A DNA stretch of 64,000 nt from Acidimicrobiales bacterium (lineage in GTDB: Bacteria > Actinomycetota > Acidimicrobiia > Acidimicrobiales > Aldehydirespiratoraceae), in the NCBI GenBank assembly GCA_029247365.1, contig JAQWLJ010000011.1:1-64000 (forward strand). Direction: 5' to 3'. Positions within the stretch are counted from its first letter, which is position 1, and each line of letters starts with the position of its first letter. A program made the position numbers and the translations under genes. Positions 18,339 to 24,840 of the stretch are shown in pieces. Under the pieces are notes generated by a model, which worked only from the letters and a program-made list of their open reading frames with translations, was not told the origin of the DNA and made no database searches.

Positions 18339-19490
18339 TCACGACTCGCCCGGTTCCGCCATGACGAACACGGCCAGAACCAGAGCGGCAAGGCCGCAGG
18401 CAGCCGCTGTGAACATCGTTGCCGAGAACCCAACCCGGACGTAGAGGAGGGTCGCGAGCGGCGTGATCAGCGCGCGGACCAACGTGGTCACCATCACGGC
18501 GCGACCCACCATCTGCGCTCGAGCACCCGGGTCGAGCTCCGACAGCAACGGGATCGCCGAGACGATGCCGTATTCGAACCCGAGAAACGCAATTACGAGC
18601 ACGGCCAAGCCGATGCCGAGCGGAGGCGCGTCGACCATGCCGAGCAGCACAATCATTGCGGTCATCAGCAGTGTTCCACCGATGATCGATCGCCGCTTGC
18701 CGACGCGATCGGTGAGTCGGCTCGATCCCACGGTGGCGACGACCTCCACCGCACCAACCGCAAGCACAGCCAGGCCGACCTCGGTGGTGTCGAGATCGTA
18801 GCTGTCCTCGAGCCATAGGCCGTGGGTGAGAAAGAGAAACTGGGCGGCAGCGGTGAGTGCCCCGTTCGTCGCCAACGCAGCGACGGCCGAACGGGTCATA
18901 CGCGGCTTGCGGGTCTGCACGGCAACCGGACGTTCCTCCCCCGACTCACGGCGAAGGATGCTCAGACCAACGACGAGCAATAACGCACCCAGTACGGCCT
19001 GGGGTGCCCACCACGCAACGCCATCGATGAGCAGGCCGACCAGCGGGAGACCAACCAACGCTGCACCGCCCCAGGTCAGCTCGACGAGCCCGGTGGCCCG
19101 GCCTCGTCGTTCGTAGGCGACAACCGCGCCGACCCACGAGTTAAGCGACACTTGGTTGGCAGTGCGGCCGAAGCCGACGATCACGAACCCAACGATGAAC
19201 CCAGGCGCGCCGAGCGTTGCGATCAGCAGACCCCCACCGGCGACGAGCCCGCAGACGCCCATGACCCTGATCGCACCCCAACGATCGCTGAACCGACCCA
19301 TGAGCGGTGCACTCAGCGCGGTGAGCTCACGGGCACTGAGGACCGCGCTCGTCGCGCCGACGCTCATTCCTGTGCCGCGGGCGAACGCCGGAAGGAAGGT
19401 GTAGGCCATCCGCATTGCGACGTTGATTGCGAATCGAGCCACGATGAGCGCAGGAAGCGCCCGCCGCACCTCGGGACTGAAGTTGCTCAT
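18339..19490 (-). CDS. MFS transporter
   Basis: 383 residues with about 12 membrane helices. The MFS signature loop appears as GRFSDRWGAIRVMGVCG after helix 2 and SRLTDRVGKRRSIIGG between helices 8 and 9. The substrate is unknown. It is divergent from the sterol-desaturase-like gene, and the shared 144-bp region contains the perfect palindrome at 19609-19624, so the two may be co-regulated. Confidence 0.85.
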   Translation of the reverse strand: MSNFSPEVRRALPALIVARFAINVAMRMAYTFLPAFARGTGMSVGATSAVLSARELTALSAPLMGRFSDRWGAIRVMGVCGLVAGGGLLIATLGAPGFIVGFVIVGFGRTANQVSLNSWVGAVVAYERRGRATGLVELTWGGAALVGLPLVGLLIDGVAWWAPQAVLGALLLVVGLSILRRESGEERPVAVQTRKPRMTRSAVAALATNGALTAAAQFLFLTHGLWLEDSYDLDTTEVGLAVLAVGAVEVVATVGSSRLTDRVGKRRSIIGGTLLMTAMIVLLGMVDAPPLGIGLAVLVIAFLGFEYGIVSAIPLLSELDPGARAQMVGRAVMVTTLVRALITPLATLLYVRVGFSATMFTAAACGLAALVLAVFVMAEPGES

Positions 19491-19598
19491 CGGCAGCCAG
19501 TCATCGGGTCAGCAACAACCGATGGCAAAAGTCTCGTCGGGCACAGCGTCGAGAACGGATCCCGTGATCTCCATGTGTCCCTCCTGGAAATGTGCCGG

Positions 19599-19627
19599 TT
19601 GCCTTTTCCTGAACGATCGTTCAGTAT
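19599..19627 (+). promoter_or_regulatory. Promoter of the sterol-desaturase-like gene
   Basis: A -35-like TTGCCT (19599-19604) and a -10-like CAGTAT (19622-19627) are separated by 17 bp. The -10 lies seven bases before the ATG at 19635, the leaderless pattern seen across this window. Confidence 0.5.
19609..19624. promoter_or_regulatory. Perfect 16-bp palindrome, probable TetR-type operator
   Basis: CTGAACGATCGTTCAG is its own reverse complement. It fills the spacer and touches the -10 of the predicted promoter, so a bound dimer would exclude RNA polymerase. The GAACG-NN-CGTTC form is typical of TetR/AcrR operators. No tetR gene is adjacent. Confidence 0.65.
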
Positions 19628-19634
19628 GCGGCCA

Positions 19635-20639
19635 ATGAAGCGATCCCGCACCAGAATGCAGCGAGCAAAAGGCTACGACCCGGAGCCGTTCGACCTGCCA
19701 CCCATCTTCCAATCGCCCGCTCGCTCCGGCGCAATGCTTCCGTGGTTCATCACGAAGTTCATGTGGCCCCAGTCGCTGCTATGGATCGGCCTTGGCGCCC
19801 TGACGTACCACGTCCTTACCCCCAGCCTCGATCGGTTTTCAAGCCTGAGCGTCGACGACATCGCGATCCTGTGGGCCCGCAACGTCGTCGTGATGCTCGT
19901 CGTCATTGGCGGGCAGCACTACTGGCTCCATATCCGCCGGGCCCAGGGCATGGAGTTCAAGTACGAGGGCCGCTGGCTCGCCCAGAATCGCAAGAGCTTC
20001 ACGTTCAACGACCAGACCCGCGACAACATGTTCTGGACCCTCGTAAGCGGCGGCAGCATCGCTGCGCTCTACGAGGCGATCCTGTTCCGGTTGTACGCCG
20101 CCGAGGCGATCCCCCAACTCGACGCACTCTGGGCGATCGCATTGATGACGATCGCCGTGTTCTTCATCGAAGGTGTGCACTTCTACCTGAACCATCGTCT
20201 CCTGCATGTCGACCCGCTCTACCAGTGGTTCCACGCCCTGCACCACCGAAACGTCAATACGGGGCCGTGGACGGGCATCTCGATGCACCCCGGTGAACAC
20301 CTCCTCTACCTATCGCTGCCTTTTGTCTTTCTTGTCATCCCCGGCTCGCCGTTCCTCGTCACGTTCAGCCTCATCTACCTGTTGATCTCGCCATCACCGT
20401 CGCACTCCGGCTTCCATCGGTTCAAGCTTGGGACGACCCGCGACGTCCACGGCGGTGACATCTTCCACAACCTCCACCACCGGTACTTCGAGGTGAACTA
20501 CGGGACGCTCCTCGTCCCGATGGACGCGTGGTTCGGAACCTTCCACGACGGAAGCCTCGAGGCCCACGAGCTCATGAAGAAGCGGCGACGCAACACGCCA
20601 GAAGCTGGCGACACGAGTGAGGTGATCAACGATGGCTGA
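19635..20639 (+). CDS. Sterol desaturase / fatty acid hydroxylase family membrane protein
   Basis: 334 residues with several membrane helices and the di-iron histidine clusters HRLLH (187-191), HALHH (200-204) and HNLHH (278-282). The family uses O2 to hydroxylate or desaturate lipids. The ATG at 19635 fits a -10 box seven bases upstream; an ATG at 19626 lies inside that box and is unlikely. A paralogue is at 34239-35216. Its last 8 bases overlap the aldolase gene, so the two are co-expressed. Confidence 0.85.
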   Translation: MKRSRTRMQRAKGYDPEPFDLPPIFQSPARSGAMLPWFITKFMWPQSLLWIGLGALTYHVLTPSLDRFSSLSVDDIAILWARNVVVMLVVIGGQHYWLHIRRAQGMEFKYEGRWLAQNRKSFTFNDQTRDNMFWTLVSGGSIAALYEAILFRLYAAEAIPQLDALWAIALMTIAVFFIEGVHFYLNHRLLHVDPLYQWFHALHHRNVNTGPWTGISMHPGEHLLYLSLPFVFLVIPGSPFLVTFSLIYLLISPSPSHSGFHRFKLGTTRDVHGGDIFHNLHHRYFEVNYGTLLVPMDAWFGTFHDGSLEAHELMKKRRRNTPEAGDTSEVINDG

Positions 20640-21378
20640 TGGCAATCGTCCAACCGAAGAGGCACAGGTCCGGGTCGAGCTCGCGGCTGCATTCCGCCTC
20701 GCCGTACACGAGGGCTGGCACGAAAGCGTTGCCAACCACTTCAGCGCCGCAGTGTCCGACGACGGCACACAATTCCTCATAAATCCGCGCTGGAAACACT
20801 TCGGCACGATCAAAGCATCCGAACTCCTGTTGCTCGACGCCAACGACGATTCGGTGATGGCCGGACCCGACGCGCCAGACCCGTCGGCCTGGGCCATCCA
20901 CGGCCAGATCCACATGGCATCGCCTCGGGCGCGGGTCCTCATCCACCTCCATCCGCCCTACGCCACCGCGATCGCGTCGCTCGCTGATCCGACCATCCTC
21001 CCGATCGATCAGAACACTGCTCGCTACTTCGGTGAGGTCGCCTACGACCTCGAGTTCGGCGGCATCGCTGACGACGGGGAAGAGGGCCACCGCCTTGCGG
21101 AGGTGCTTCAGGACAAGAGTGTGCTGATGATGGGTAACCATGGGGTCACCACGGTCGGCCAGACCGTGGCGGAGGCGTTCGAGTCGATGTACTACCTCGA
21201 GAAAGCGTGTCAGAACCTCGTGCTTGCGTACTCGACTGGGCAGCCGTTGAGCGTGCTTGACGACGACATGGCCGCGAAGGTCGCCAAGGGCTGGAAGCAG
21301 TTCGGCGGCCTCGGCGACGCCCACTTCGAGCAGCGGGTGGCACAGCTCGACCAGACCGACCCCGACTACCGGGACTGA
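20632..21378 (+). CDS. Class II aldolase/adducin family protein
   Basis: 248 residues, a zinc-dependent aldolase or epimerase of the fuculose-phosphate aldolase type. The metal-binding histidines are H105 and H107 in LIHLHPPYATAIA and the later MMGNHGVTTVG histidine. The start overlaps the desaturase by 8 bases. The aldol substrate cannot be deduced; coupling to a lipid hydroxylase is unusual. Confidence 0.85.
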   Translation: MADGNRPTEEAQVRVELAAAFRLAVHEGWHESVANHFSAAVSDDGTQFLINPRWKHFGTIKASELLLLDANDDSVMAGPDAPDPSAWAIHGQIHMASPRARVLIHLHPPYATAIASLADPTILPIDQNTARYFGEVAYDLEFGGIADDGEEGHRLAEVLQDKSVLMMGNHGVTTVGQTVAEAFESMYYLEKACQNLVLAYSTGQPLSVLDDDMAAKVAKGWKQFGGLGDAHFEQRVAQLDQTDPDYRD

Positions 21379-21471
21379 TCGGTAGACAACGATGTGGACC
21401 CAGGGGGGAAACCCGTGGCCATCCAAGGCGTCTCATTCGGGCCCGCGCCAAACCGGCTTGACTGCACCTAA

Positions 21472-21792
21472 GTGACCGCACACAAAACGCTTCACGCCCG
21501 GGCGGCAGAGATCGAGCAGCGCCTTGCGGAAATCGAACGCGAGTCGAAGAAGGCCACCAGTGGGATCGGGTTCGGGAAACGAATTGGCGAAGGGACGAAC
21601 ATCGCAGTCGAGCGACTCAAGGACGTGTCGATGCACCAGGGTCTGCAGACCGAACTGGCCAACATCAAACGGGCGCTCGAGAAGCTCAACGAAGGCGGGC
21701 CGATGCGGTGCGACGGCTGCAGTGGGCCCATTCCTGCCGCCCGACTCGACGCACTGCCGTGGGCGGTTCGATGCGTCGCCTGTGCCGTCTGA
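21472..21792 (+). CDS. DksA/TraR-type C4 zinc-finger protein
   Basis: 106 residues: an N-terminal coiled-coil-like region (5-75, rich in E/R/K) and a C-terminal zinc finger with C80-x2-C83 and C101-x2-C104 in the spacing of the DksA/TraR family. Such proteins bind the RNA polymerase secondary channel, but small actinobacterial members are poorly studied and this role is inferred. The start is a GTG. The following EamA gene begins 15 bp downstream. Confidence 0.75.
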   Translation: MTAHKTLHARAAEIEQRLAEIERESKKATSGIGFGKRIGEGTNIAVERLKDVSMHQGLQTELANIKRALEKLNEGGPMRCDGCSGPIPAARLDALPWAVRCVACAV

Positions 21793-21807
21793 CGATCGAA
21801 TCATCCG

Positions 21808-22641
21808 ATGGCCATCCTTCTTGCAATCCTCTGCACACTCTCGATCGGTGCCGGCGAACACCTCGCTGCAGGCGCCACCAAGTCGACGCGGTCACACGAA
21901 ATTACGTCGGGCATGCTCGCGTCAGGGGCCTTGCTCACCGGAGCACTGGCGCTCGCATGGCGGGGCGATCCGACCACACACGATCTCGTCTTCGGCGCAC
22001 TTGCCGGGGTCGCCAACGGCGTCGGCATCTTACTCCTCTACCTTGCGTACTCGCGGGGGAGCCTTCGCTCAGCGGCGCCAACGGCAGGTGTCGTCATGTC
22101 GGCGGTACCGGTGCTGTGGAATCTCACCGTCGGTTCAGTGCCCGGGCTCCTCGTCTGGGTGGGAATCGGGCTTGGGCTCACCGCAATTGGATTCACGTCG
22201 TACCAACCCGATGGCGGCGAAGACGATCAGTTCGCCGCCAACCTCGCGATTGTCGCCGGAGTCGTGTTCGGAATCCTGTTGATCCTGCTGGGTGAAATCG
22301 GCAGCGACGCCGGAGGATCGCCGCTGTTCGTTCAGCGCACGGTCGGCCTCGTGGTCGCCGTCTCCGTCACCCGCCTGACCGGGCCTCGGATCCTCCCTGC
22401 GACCTGGGCCGACCGGCGGGCCTCGTTTATCGTCGGCTTGTTTGCCACGGGGGCCGTGATCCTCTTTGTTCTCGCGATCCAGGCCGGCGGCAGCCTGGCC
22501 GTCGTCAGTGTCATGGGTTCGCAGTACCCGGCAGTCGCCGTTCTGCTCGGCGTGATGCTGCACCGTCAACCGCTGCGGTGGTGGCAGGGTGTCGGCCTTG
22601 CCATGGCGAGCCTGGCAGTCGCGCTGATCGCGATCGGCTGA
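21808..22641 (+). CDS. EamA/DMT-family transporter
   Basis: 277 residues with ten predicted membrane helices in two EamA-like halves; the end of the first half reads GIGLGLTAIGFTSYQ and the end of the second LGVMLHRQPLRWWQGVGLAM. This matches drug/metabolite exporters of unknown substrate. A similar transporter is at 42449-43273. It ends 14 bp before the selenoprotein gene, which has its own predicted promoter inside the end of this gene. Confidence 0.85.
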   Translation: MAILLAILCTLSIGAGEHLAAGATKSTRSHEITSGMLASGALLTGALALAWRGDPTTHDLVFGALAGVANGVGILLLYLAYSRGSLRSAAPTAGVVMSAVPVLWNLTVGSVPGLLVWVGIGLGLTAIGFTSYQPDGGEDDQFAANLAIVAGVVFGILLILLGEIGSDAGGSPLFVQRTVGLVVAVSVTRLTGPRILPATWADRRASFIVGLFATGAVILFVLAIQAGGSLAVVSVMGSQYPAVAVLLGVMLHRQPLRWWQGVGLAMASLAVALIAIG

Positions 22642-22643
22642 GG

Positions 22644-22649
22644 GATACT
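22644..22649 (+). promoter_or_regulatory. -10 box (GATACT) of the selenoprotein gene, leaderless type
   Basis: GATACT lies six bases before the ATG at 22656 and right after the EamA stop codon. It suggests separate transcription without a 5' leader. Confidence 0.4.
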
Positions 22650-22655
22650 GGTGCC

Positions 22656-23126
22656 ATGAACATCCAACCGAAACTGACCGGCTCACCGCTCGGCTACACG
22701 CTGCACCAAGTCGAGGGCCTTGGTGACGACTACCAGTCGTGGAGCAAGGCTCTGTGGTCTAACGACCGCGCGGTTCCGGCGACGTTCAAAGAGCTGATCT
22801 TCCTCCGCAGCTCCGTCGTAAACGCGTGCCCTACTTGACTCGAGAGTCATGTTGCCTCGGCGAGGCAACGAGGGGTCACCGACGAAAAAATCGATGCCGT
22901 CCACGTCCCTGACACGTGGGCCAACATCTTCGACGATGAGGAGCGGGTGGTGCTCGAGTTAGCGGACAAGATGTCAGGCGACGTGTCGTCGCTGCCGTCA
23001 CTACTCATCGAGGAGCTGCATTCCCATTTCAGCGAAGCTGAGTTAGCTGAGCTCATCCTCGTCGCTGGTCAAGCCAATCTGAACAACCGCGTTGGAAACG
23101 CAGCCAAACAGCTTCTTGGCAAGTAG
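22656..23126 (+). CDS. AhpD-like (carboxymuconolactone decarboxylase family) protein, probable selenoprotein
   Basis: One frame of 157 codons, interrupted only by TGA at 22836-22838, encodes a complete AhpD-like protein of 156 residues. It shows the AhpD proton-relay signature exactly: E46-x11-C58-x2-[TGA]61-x3-H65 (KELIFLRSSVVNACPT, then LESHVASARQRGV). The TGA replaces the second, reactive cysteine of the CxxC. A hairpin starts 13 bases after it. The 95 downstream codons are free of stops and keep family character, so decay is unlikely. AhpD-like CxxU selenoproteins are known from marine metagenomes. Two rare TTA codons (22959, 23043) hint at foreign origin. A thiol peroxidase/disulfide reductase role is inferred. 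Confidence 0.82.
22836..22838 (+). other. Selenocysteine (TGA) codon, residue 61
   Basis: An in-frame TGA at the position of the second cysteine of the AhpD CxxC motif, read C-P-T-Sec. The context is the only place in the window where a TGA replaces a known redox cysteine. Confidence 0.78.
22851..22869 (+). promoter_or_regulatory. Bacterial SECIS element
   Basis: GTTGCCTC (22851-22858) pairs perfectly with GAGGCAAC (22862-22869) around the loop GGC. The loop is 21-23 bases after the TGA, and its first base is G, both within the known requirements of SelB-binding bacterial SECIS hairpins. It lies inside the coding sequence, as bacterial SECIS elements do. Confidence 0.75.
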
Positions 23127-23133
23127 CCGAGCG

Positions 23134-24840
23134 TTACTTCACCTCGGACCATCGGTCGATCACACAAACATCGGCGACGAACCGCACCTCGCGCCGAGGT
23201 GACCAATAGTGCGCCGCTTCGTGTACCGCGGCCTCGACCATGACCGCAACCGCAGCAGCATGCTCTGCCGGCGTATGGACGAGTAATTCATCGTGCAGAC
23301 ACAGGACGACTTCGGCGCCAAGCGCGCGGCCCCGGCGACGCACGGTGATTGCCCAAATCTTGAAGTACTCGGCCGCAGCTCCTTGGATGAGCGCGTTGCG
23401 GGCGTAGCGGCCACGTGCGGCTGCAGCTGACACCGCCTGGTCGATGTCGCCCTCGGTGTCAGCGGTGGTGCCCATGCGTACCCGTCGACCGCCGACGGTG
23501 AAGATGTCCTCTGAGCGCTTACCCGACTCTGCTGCCCGCTCGAGGAGCCCCATCGCCGCGGGGTAGTTCTTCGTGAGCCCGGCGAGCGCGCCCGCCGATT
23601 CGCCGGTGGTGGCGCCGTACATTGCGCCAAGGATCGCCACCTTGGCGATGTCTCGCTCGACACCCAGGGTTCGGGCGACCGGTGCGTACAAATCGTCCTG
23701 CTGGGTCGCGCCGATGAAGCCCGCATCGCCCGATACGGCAGCGAGCACTCGCGGCTCGATCTGGCCGAGGTCGGCCCGAACCAGCTTGTAGCCCGGGGCT
23801 GCGGCAACGAGCGGGCGCATCGCAGCTGGGAGATTGTGCATACCGGCAGACGCGGTCATGCGGCCAGCCGCGCCGTCGGAACCGGACCAGTCACCACGCA
23901 AGCGACCACCGCGGACGTGCTCGTCGAGCCATTGCCACCCATAGGTGGTGGCAATACGTTCGGCCTTACGCCATGCCAGGAGCGCGTCGATCACCGGCTC
24001 GTCCTCACGCAGCGCTTCCATCCGCCACGCCCTCGTGTCGGGTAGGTCAATCCCCTGACGACGGAGCATCGCCTTGACCTCCGCCGGGTTTCGCAGGTTG
24101 ATCTCCCAGCGGGGTTCGAGCTGCTGGAAGACACGTTCGTCGCGTTCGGCCCGACGTTCGTCTTCCTCGGCCATGGTGCGAGGACGGGCACCCGTCGCCT
24201 TGGTGATCAGCCGGCGGGCTTCGACTTCGTCGATGGGGAGACCGTTCGTGGTCAACTCCGCGCACAGCAGCTCCGCTGCCGATTCCGACCGGGCCGTCGA
24301 TGCGGCCCGGTCCGGGTCGACTCGCCCGGCGAGGAGGTGCTCCTGGGCATGCATCGCATCGAGCGCGAGAGCGGCCCAGGTCGCGAGCCGATCAGGCGTC
24401 TCTCCGAAGCCGCCGTCGATCCACTCGGGGCGAAGATGACCGTCGGGCCGAATCGGCTGACCGCGGTCACCCTCAACGGCAGGCGCGTCGAGTAGTCCGA
24501 GCTGGCCCATCTTGGGCAGGGTGTCGAGATCGAGCTTCTGCAAGGAGGCCCACACGACCCCGAGCGGAGCGCGCCACGTGCCGTTGAGCAGGCGATGCAC
24601 GACCGTGACATCCCAACAGCGATCGATCGGAACGCCTGCCATCGCAATCGGGTCTGCAGCGGACCCTCTTCCCCACCACACCCAGCGGGGTCCCACATCA
24701 CCGTGGAGTTCGCGAAGAATCGTGGCCGGATCAGCCGCTGGGATGGCCCAGTGCTCGTCCGTGGTTGCGAGTCCGAGCCCAACGCCCGGGGCGAGGGCGA
24801 CAGCGACAGTGTCGTCGCGGGAGAAGACCGGGAGCGTCAA
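23134..24840 (-). CDS. Bifunctional 3'-5' exonuclease/DNA polymerase, family A
   Basis: 568 residues, an actinobacterial PolA relative without the 5'-3' exonuclease domain. Polymerase motif A is VRADLGQIEPRVLAAVSGD, motif B lies in RDIAKVAILGAMYG, and motif C is LCLHDELLVHTP (HDE). The N-terminal third corresponds to the 3'-5' exonuclease domain, but its catalytic acids are not obvious. In motif A the usual Ser after Asp-Tyr is replaced (DLGQIE). It starts at a TTG that overlaps the upstream stop (TTGA), coupling it to the aminotransferase. Confidence 0.85.
   Translation of the reverse strand: MTLPVFSRDDTVAVALAPGVGLGLATTDEHWAIPAADPATILRELHGDVGPRWVWWGRGSAADPIAMAGVPIDRCWDVTVVHRLLNGTWRAPLGVVWASLQKLDLDTLPKMGQLGLLDAPAVEGDRGQPIRPDGHLRPEWIDGGFGETPDRLATWAALALDAMHAQEHLLAGRVDPDRAASTARSESAAELLCAELTTNGLPIDEVEARRLITKATGARPRTMAEEDERRAERDERVFQQLEPRWEINLRNPAEVKAMLRRQGIDLPDTRAWRMEALREDEPVIDALLAWRKAERIATTYGWQWLDEHVRGGRLRGDWSGSDGAAGRMTASAGMHNLPAAMRPLVAAAPGYKLVRADLGQIEPRVLAAVSGDAGFIGATQQDDLYAPVARTLGVERDIAKVAILGAMYGATTGESAGALAGLTKNYPAAMGLLERAAESGKRSEDIFTVGGRRVRMGTTADTEGDIDQAVSAAAARGRYARNALIQGAAAEYFKIWAITVRRRGRALGAEVVLCLHDELLVHTPAEHAAAVAVMVEAAVHEAAHYWSPRREVRFVADVCVIDRWSEVK

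Follow-up and report, generated by a model that had tools for sequence, protein, structure and literature searches.

The TGA at codon 61 of a gene for an AhpD-fold redox protein, found in a 64,000-nucleotide stretch of an Acidimicrobiales bacterium contig (hereafter, the window), is almost certainly decoded as selenocysteine (Sec), judging from sequence comparisons. This decoding, first suggested by an annotation made from the DNA alone (hereafter, the first-pass annotation), gains support from the selenocysteine machinery of the host, the conservation of the TGA, a covarying downstream hairpin and an exchange of Sec and Cys in a neighboring subfamily. With the TGA read as Sec, positions 22656-23126 of the forward strand form a single frame of 156 amino acids, the only internal TGA of which is codon 61 (22836-22838, followed by C, that is, TGAC); another 95 codons extend beyond it. 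The frame and the 95 open codons reported by the first-pass annotation were reproduced by translation.

The carboxymuconolactone decarboxylase-like (CMD) domain PF02627 matches residues 31-90, spanning the TGA, with 48.5 bits against a gathering cut-off of 23 (E 8.9e-13), which assigns the protein to the AhpD-like/CMD superfamily; the NCBIfam model of the AhpD core domain, TIGR00778, also matches above its cut-off (E 8.5e-12). The in-frame TGA is flanked by family homology on both sides, one of the patterns by which bacterial selenoproteins are recognized. The residues E46-x11-C58-x2-U61-x3-H65 reproduce the AhpD relay spacing exactly, with U61 in the place of the second cysteine, as had been proposed. 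E46 (22791-22793, forward strand), invariant across the family alignment, is the predicted proton-relay glutamate, equivalent to Glu36 of PA0269 and Glu118 of Mycobacterium tuberculosis AhpD (PMC3141380). C58 (22827-22829, forward strand), also invariant, is the predicted resolving cysteine of the CxxU motif, and H65 (22848-22850, forward strand), the predicted proton-relay histidine, is nearly invariant, being replaced in one relative (L029). A mechanical, standard-code ORF caller stops at codon 61, just as the first-pass annotation warned, and loses 95 of the 156 residues of this gene together with the active site.

Homologs were sought in genome contigs using a query with Cys substituted for Sec, so that the scan was free of bias towards TGA. 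It yielded 11 full-length relatives with 45-81% identity, from metagenome-assembled genomes (MAGs) of Actinomycetota/Acidimicrobiales and from one Thermomicrobiales MAG, and in all 11 of them codon 61 is TGA and the frame is otherwise free of stops. Members of the close family (above 250 bits) are present in four of the 395 genomes sampled from the class, all with the TGA; one of these four, G392, which belongs to the host genus, corresponds to the same-genus relative L020, having the same sequence around the TGA and SelB at the same place and with the same score. Among 396 genomes sampled from the phylum, the genome that contains the window is the only carrier, whereas the class of the Thermomicrobiales relative includes a second carrier (G866), with both the TGA and the hairpin. 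In total, 15 distinct full-length members (the window, the 11 loci, G314, G337 and G866) are known, and all are of the Sec type, an agreement that goes well beyond chance; all sequences compared come from uncultured genomes.

A TGA within the frame would also be produced by a nonsense mutation or a sequencing error that truncated an ordinary CxxC AhpD gene, but such an accident does not explain why the same TGA recurs in 15 separate assemblies, down to about 45% identity, without any other in-frame stop. Furthermore, the comparison with L020 gives a dN of 0.107 before the TGA and of 0.105 after it, and a dS of about 1 on both sides, so that both halves appear equally constrained as protein. 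The conserved TGA and the purifying selection downstream, equal to that upstream, refute the pseudogene explanation, to which we assign a negligible probability. The first-pass annotation had named scattered stops and frameshifts in homologs from the same genus as evidence that would overturn its proposal; where these were looked for, the TGA was conserved and the gene showed no decay.

The host genome (G000; 3.11 Mb, 98% complete) encodes the entire set of selA, selB, selC (tRNA-Sec) and selD, for which the first-pass annotation had recommended a search. The selB gene scores over the cut-off on contig C51, directly downstream of selA, and both genes are confirmed by NCBIfam; the C-terminal part of SelB matches its model only partly. 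The same contig carries the tRNA-Sec (64 bits, anticodon TCA). The selD gene, also over the cut-off, is located elsewhere in the genome (G000:C4:70200-71126, forward strand; L010). SelB was detected over the cut-off in all 11 genomes that contain the homologs; because 221 of the 395 genomes of the class also carry SelB, this association is consistent with Sec decoding and not decisive alone.

A selenium-free protein would result if a change of code or readthrough placed Trp or a near-cognate amino acid at this TGA; in favor of this, codon 61 has the TGAC context, which is known to be leaky in some systems. However, TGA is the normal stop of 10 of the 11 window genes checked, so that the genetic code is standard, and a change of code was rejected on these grounds. 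The full Sec machinery of the host, the location of the TGA at a catalytic Cys/Sec site, the covarying hairpin at SECIS distance and the exchange of TGA with TGC among sister genes (see below) all speak against a selenium-free product, which we consider very unlikely, and for the insertion of Sec.

The hairpin GTTGCCTC-GGC-GAGGCAAC (22851-22869, forward strand) begins 13 bases after the TGA and dominates the folded region. The 5' stem arm, GTTGCCTC, occupies 22851-22858, the apical loop GGC, with G first, 22859-22861 (21-23 bases past the TGA), and the 3' stem arm, GAGGCAAC, 22862-22869; the coordinates and distances originally given for this element are correct. It has the features by which a bacterial SECIS is defined, namely, a nearby downstream position, a small apical loop and a conserved G (PMC1088965). 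By its folding energy alone, the hairpin stands out only moderately (z about -1.6). Across 12 sequences, four of the 11 stem pairs have changed on both sides yet still pair, and the covariation score of the stem, 0.262, was reached in none of 500 shuffles, a count that takes no account of relatedness among the sequences. In a control, the true stem is 91% paired, compared to 27-62% for slid pairings, and RNAalifold recovers the same stem unprompted.

Because the shuffles ignore relatedness, much of the weight is borne by two other observations. First, the stem of the Chloroflexota copy has been rebuilt, as CCGCTTC-GGC-GAAGCGG. Second, Arg70, which is encoded within the stem, close to the loop, is specified by AGA or AGG in all 11 sequences that have Arg at this position, whereas these two codons make up 5% of the Arg codons in the window genes; the stem forces the use of rare Arg codons. 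This pattern of substitutions indicates that the hairpin is under selection. A search of the gene region against Rfam detected no SECIS family, with a single sub-threshold chance match, and when the host genome was scanned with a covariance model built on this SECIS, no other match was convincing (next best E 2.8), so that the model is family-specific. In the mechanism that we propose, the hairpin, 13 bases downstream of the UGA at codon 61, would recruit SelB with Sec-tRNA(Sec), and selenocysteine would be inserted at this codon instead of termination.

Sec decoding in this host is independently supported by other members of the same superfamily: three of the seven CMD-family genes in the genome have an in-frame TGA, which in each of them falls precisely on the U of CxxU. 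The second AhpD-family selenoprotein gene (L037; G000:C69:10726-10845, reverse strand) encodes a CFYU motif and matches NF041238 with 262.6 bits. The third (L038; G000:C40:161064-161189, reverse strand) encodes CHYU and matches TIGR01926 with 132.3 bits; after it comes a hairpin of 7 perfect base pairs with the loop GGUCU. The host selD contains an in-frame TGA at the active site as well, in GAGUGCK, and thus also encodes a selenoprotein, as it does in many organisms that use Sec. With at least three AhpD-family selenoprotein genes and a Sec-containing SelD, this genome offers a useful case for the question of why peroxide-handling enzymes keep Sec.

AhpD-like CxxU selenoproteins are an established class in marine metagenomes, as the first-pass annotation stated: a CxxU CMD domain-containing selenoprotein was described from the Sargasso Sea (PMC1088965), GOS yielded the pfam02627 CxxU selenoprotein 'AhpD-like 2' (PMC2398784), and a 2026 inventory lists, among the AhpD-type entries, NF041047, TIGR01926, PF02627 CMD-like CxxU, NF041238 and NF041537 (PMC13188914). 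The Sargasso CMD and 'AhpD-like 2' clusters, whose definition goes no further than the Pfam domain and which were compared by description, resemble the present protein in having PF02627, CxxU and a bacterial SECIS immediately behind the TGA. NF041238 (AhpD_rel_CFYUT, Sargasso hypothetical protein 1), the family of L037, likewise consists of AhpD-related (seleno)proteins, but the present protein reaches 19.4 where the cut-off is 175, has about half the length and contains CPTU instead of CFYU. The peroxidase-related, AhpD-like CxxU family TIGR01926, to which the Sec-type paralog L038 belongs, has the same fold and relay spacing, but the score of 34.2 is below its cut-off of 81.8. Scores also fall short for NF053654 (GroundWater_YciW; 41.4, cut-off 310) and for the GSU3128 (seleno)protein family NF041047 (27.8, cut-off 110). 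By these sequence comparisons, the protein works like the catalogued CxxU AhpD/CMD-like selenoproteins and represents an unnamed branch outside the named NCBIfam models, below the cut-off of every named selenoprotein family, so far always with Sec, and found mainly in Acidimicrobiia, with a small number of members in Chloroflexota. None of the papers searched links selenoproteins with Acidimicrobiia, and the present family adds a well-supported selenoprotein branch to this poorly cultivated actinobacterial class.

An exchange of Cys and Sec at residue 61, which the first-pass annotation suggested looking for among homologs, was found outside the close family and not within it, where 15 of 15 members have Sec and no Cys form was detected. 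One step out, in a sister subfamily from Chloroflexota, L069 has CAYU, encoded with TGA and followed by a hairpin, and L068 has CAYC, encoded with TGC, at the same position; both come from the class to which the Thermomicrobiales relative belongs. L068 retains a partly decayed hairpin sequence where L069 has the hairpin. Among the solved AhpD structures, PA0269 of Pseudomonas aeruginosa (2ijc, 2o4d, 7xw1), the closest relative by both sequence and fold, has Cys at the equivalent position.

The AlphaFold2 model of the protein is all-helical, as is the AhpD fold, with a mean pLDDT of 82 and low values for residues 1-20. It matches PA0269 with Z 16.3 (rmsd 2.3 over 122 residues), Atu0492 with Z 15.8, and M. 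tuberculosis AhpD with Z 10.5 at 13% identity. A sequence profile retrieves 2ijc (PA0269) with E 5e-19 and aligns the second Cys of its CAYC with residue 61. The relay consists of Glu36, Cys48, Tyr50, Cys51 and His55 in PA0269, and of Glu118, Cys130, His132, Cys133 and His137 in M. tuberculosis AhpD (PMC3141380). The Glu, the first Cys, the second redox residue and the His of PA0269 align with those of the present protein, and M. tuberculosis AhpD has the same E-x11-C-x2-C-x3-H relay and the same fold; given this alignment of the relay residues, Sec would replace the second redox Cys. The differences are that PA0269 has Cys-Ala-Tyr-Cys and no selenium, and that M. tuberculosis AhpD has Cys in place of Sec and His132 in place of Thr60 and carries its catalytic hairpin within the C-terminal half (PMC3141380). 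Thr60 occupies the third relay position (His132 in M. tuberculosis AhpD, Tyr50 in PA0269) and, given this residue and the loss of H65 in L029, the catalytic detail may differ from that of AhpD.

We infer that the protein is most likely a CxxU thiol/selenol peroxidase or a disulfide adaptor, and any substrate and electron donor assigned to it would be inferences of the same kind. U61 would serve as the second, C-terminal redox residue of the AhpD CxxC center, with C58 as its partner and with E46 and H65 acting as a proton relay; the selenol of U61 would attack a peroxide or a disulfide, and C58 would resolve the product via a U61-C58 selenenyl-sulfide. We lean slightly towards direct peroxidase activity: E, C, C/U and H make up the relay of AhpD proteins with peroxidase activity, and a FOX assay showed that PA0269 reduces H2O2 (PMC3141380). 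It is nevertheless quite conceivable, if somewhat less than probable, that Sec is inserted into a protein with a different function, either a thiol-disulfide adaptor, such as an AhpD-like donor to a peroxiredoxin, or an enzyme of other reductive chemistry, for example, dehalogenation. An adaptor role towards AhpC has been ascribed to AhpD (PMC3141380), the debrominase Bmp8 combines the same fold (Z 12.5 with our model) with another chemistry, debromination, and the genomic neighbors indicate no substrate; conversely, nothing connects the protein to halogenated substrates.

Upstream of the selenoprotein gene are genes for a class II aldolase, a DksA-type zinc finger protein and an EamA transporter; downstream, in convergent orientation, is a family-A DNA polymerase-like gene (23134-24840, reverse strand; 568 amino acids). 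This gene order is common only to L020, from the same genus, and to no other carrier, so that the neighbors do not identify a substrate; a synteny check for an operon partner revealed none that would point to one. Three of the other genus members checked lack the aldolase-EamA-AhpD segment as a block; in them, another gene (by eye, isocitrate lyase/PEP mutase-like) comes after the polymerase gene, and then the fatty acid hydroxylase gene. A search of viral contigs found no relative, so that a phage origin is not indicated, and the AhpD proteins that a search of plasmid proteins yielded are all distant, with identities below 60%. We give an even chance to the reading that the 15 sequences form an AhpD selenoprotein subfamily not named before, one that depends obligately on Sec and has no Cys form, that occurs in scattered Acidimicrobiia and in a few Chloroflexota, and that is gained or lost within the host genus as a cassette with its neighbors.

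In the window, the aldolase-EamA-AhpD block lies between the fatty acid hydroxylase gene and the DNA polymerase-like gene (19422-24840). The latter persists in several members of the genus; PF00476 covers only the C-terminal part of its 568-residue product, and the best PHROG match is a phage DNA polymerase.
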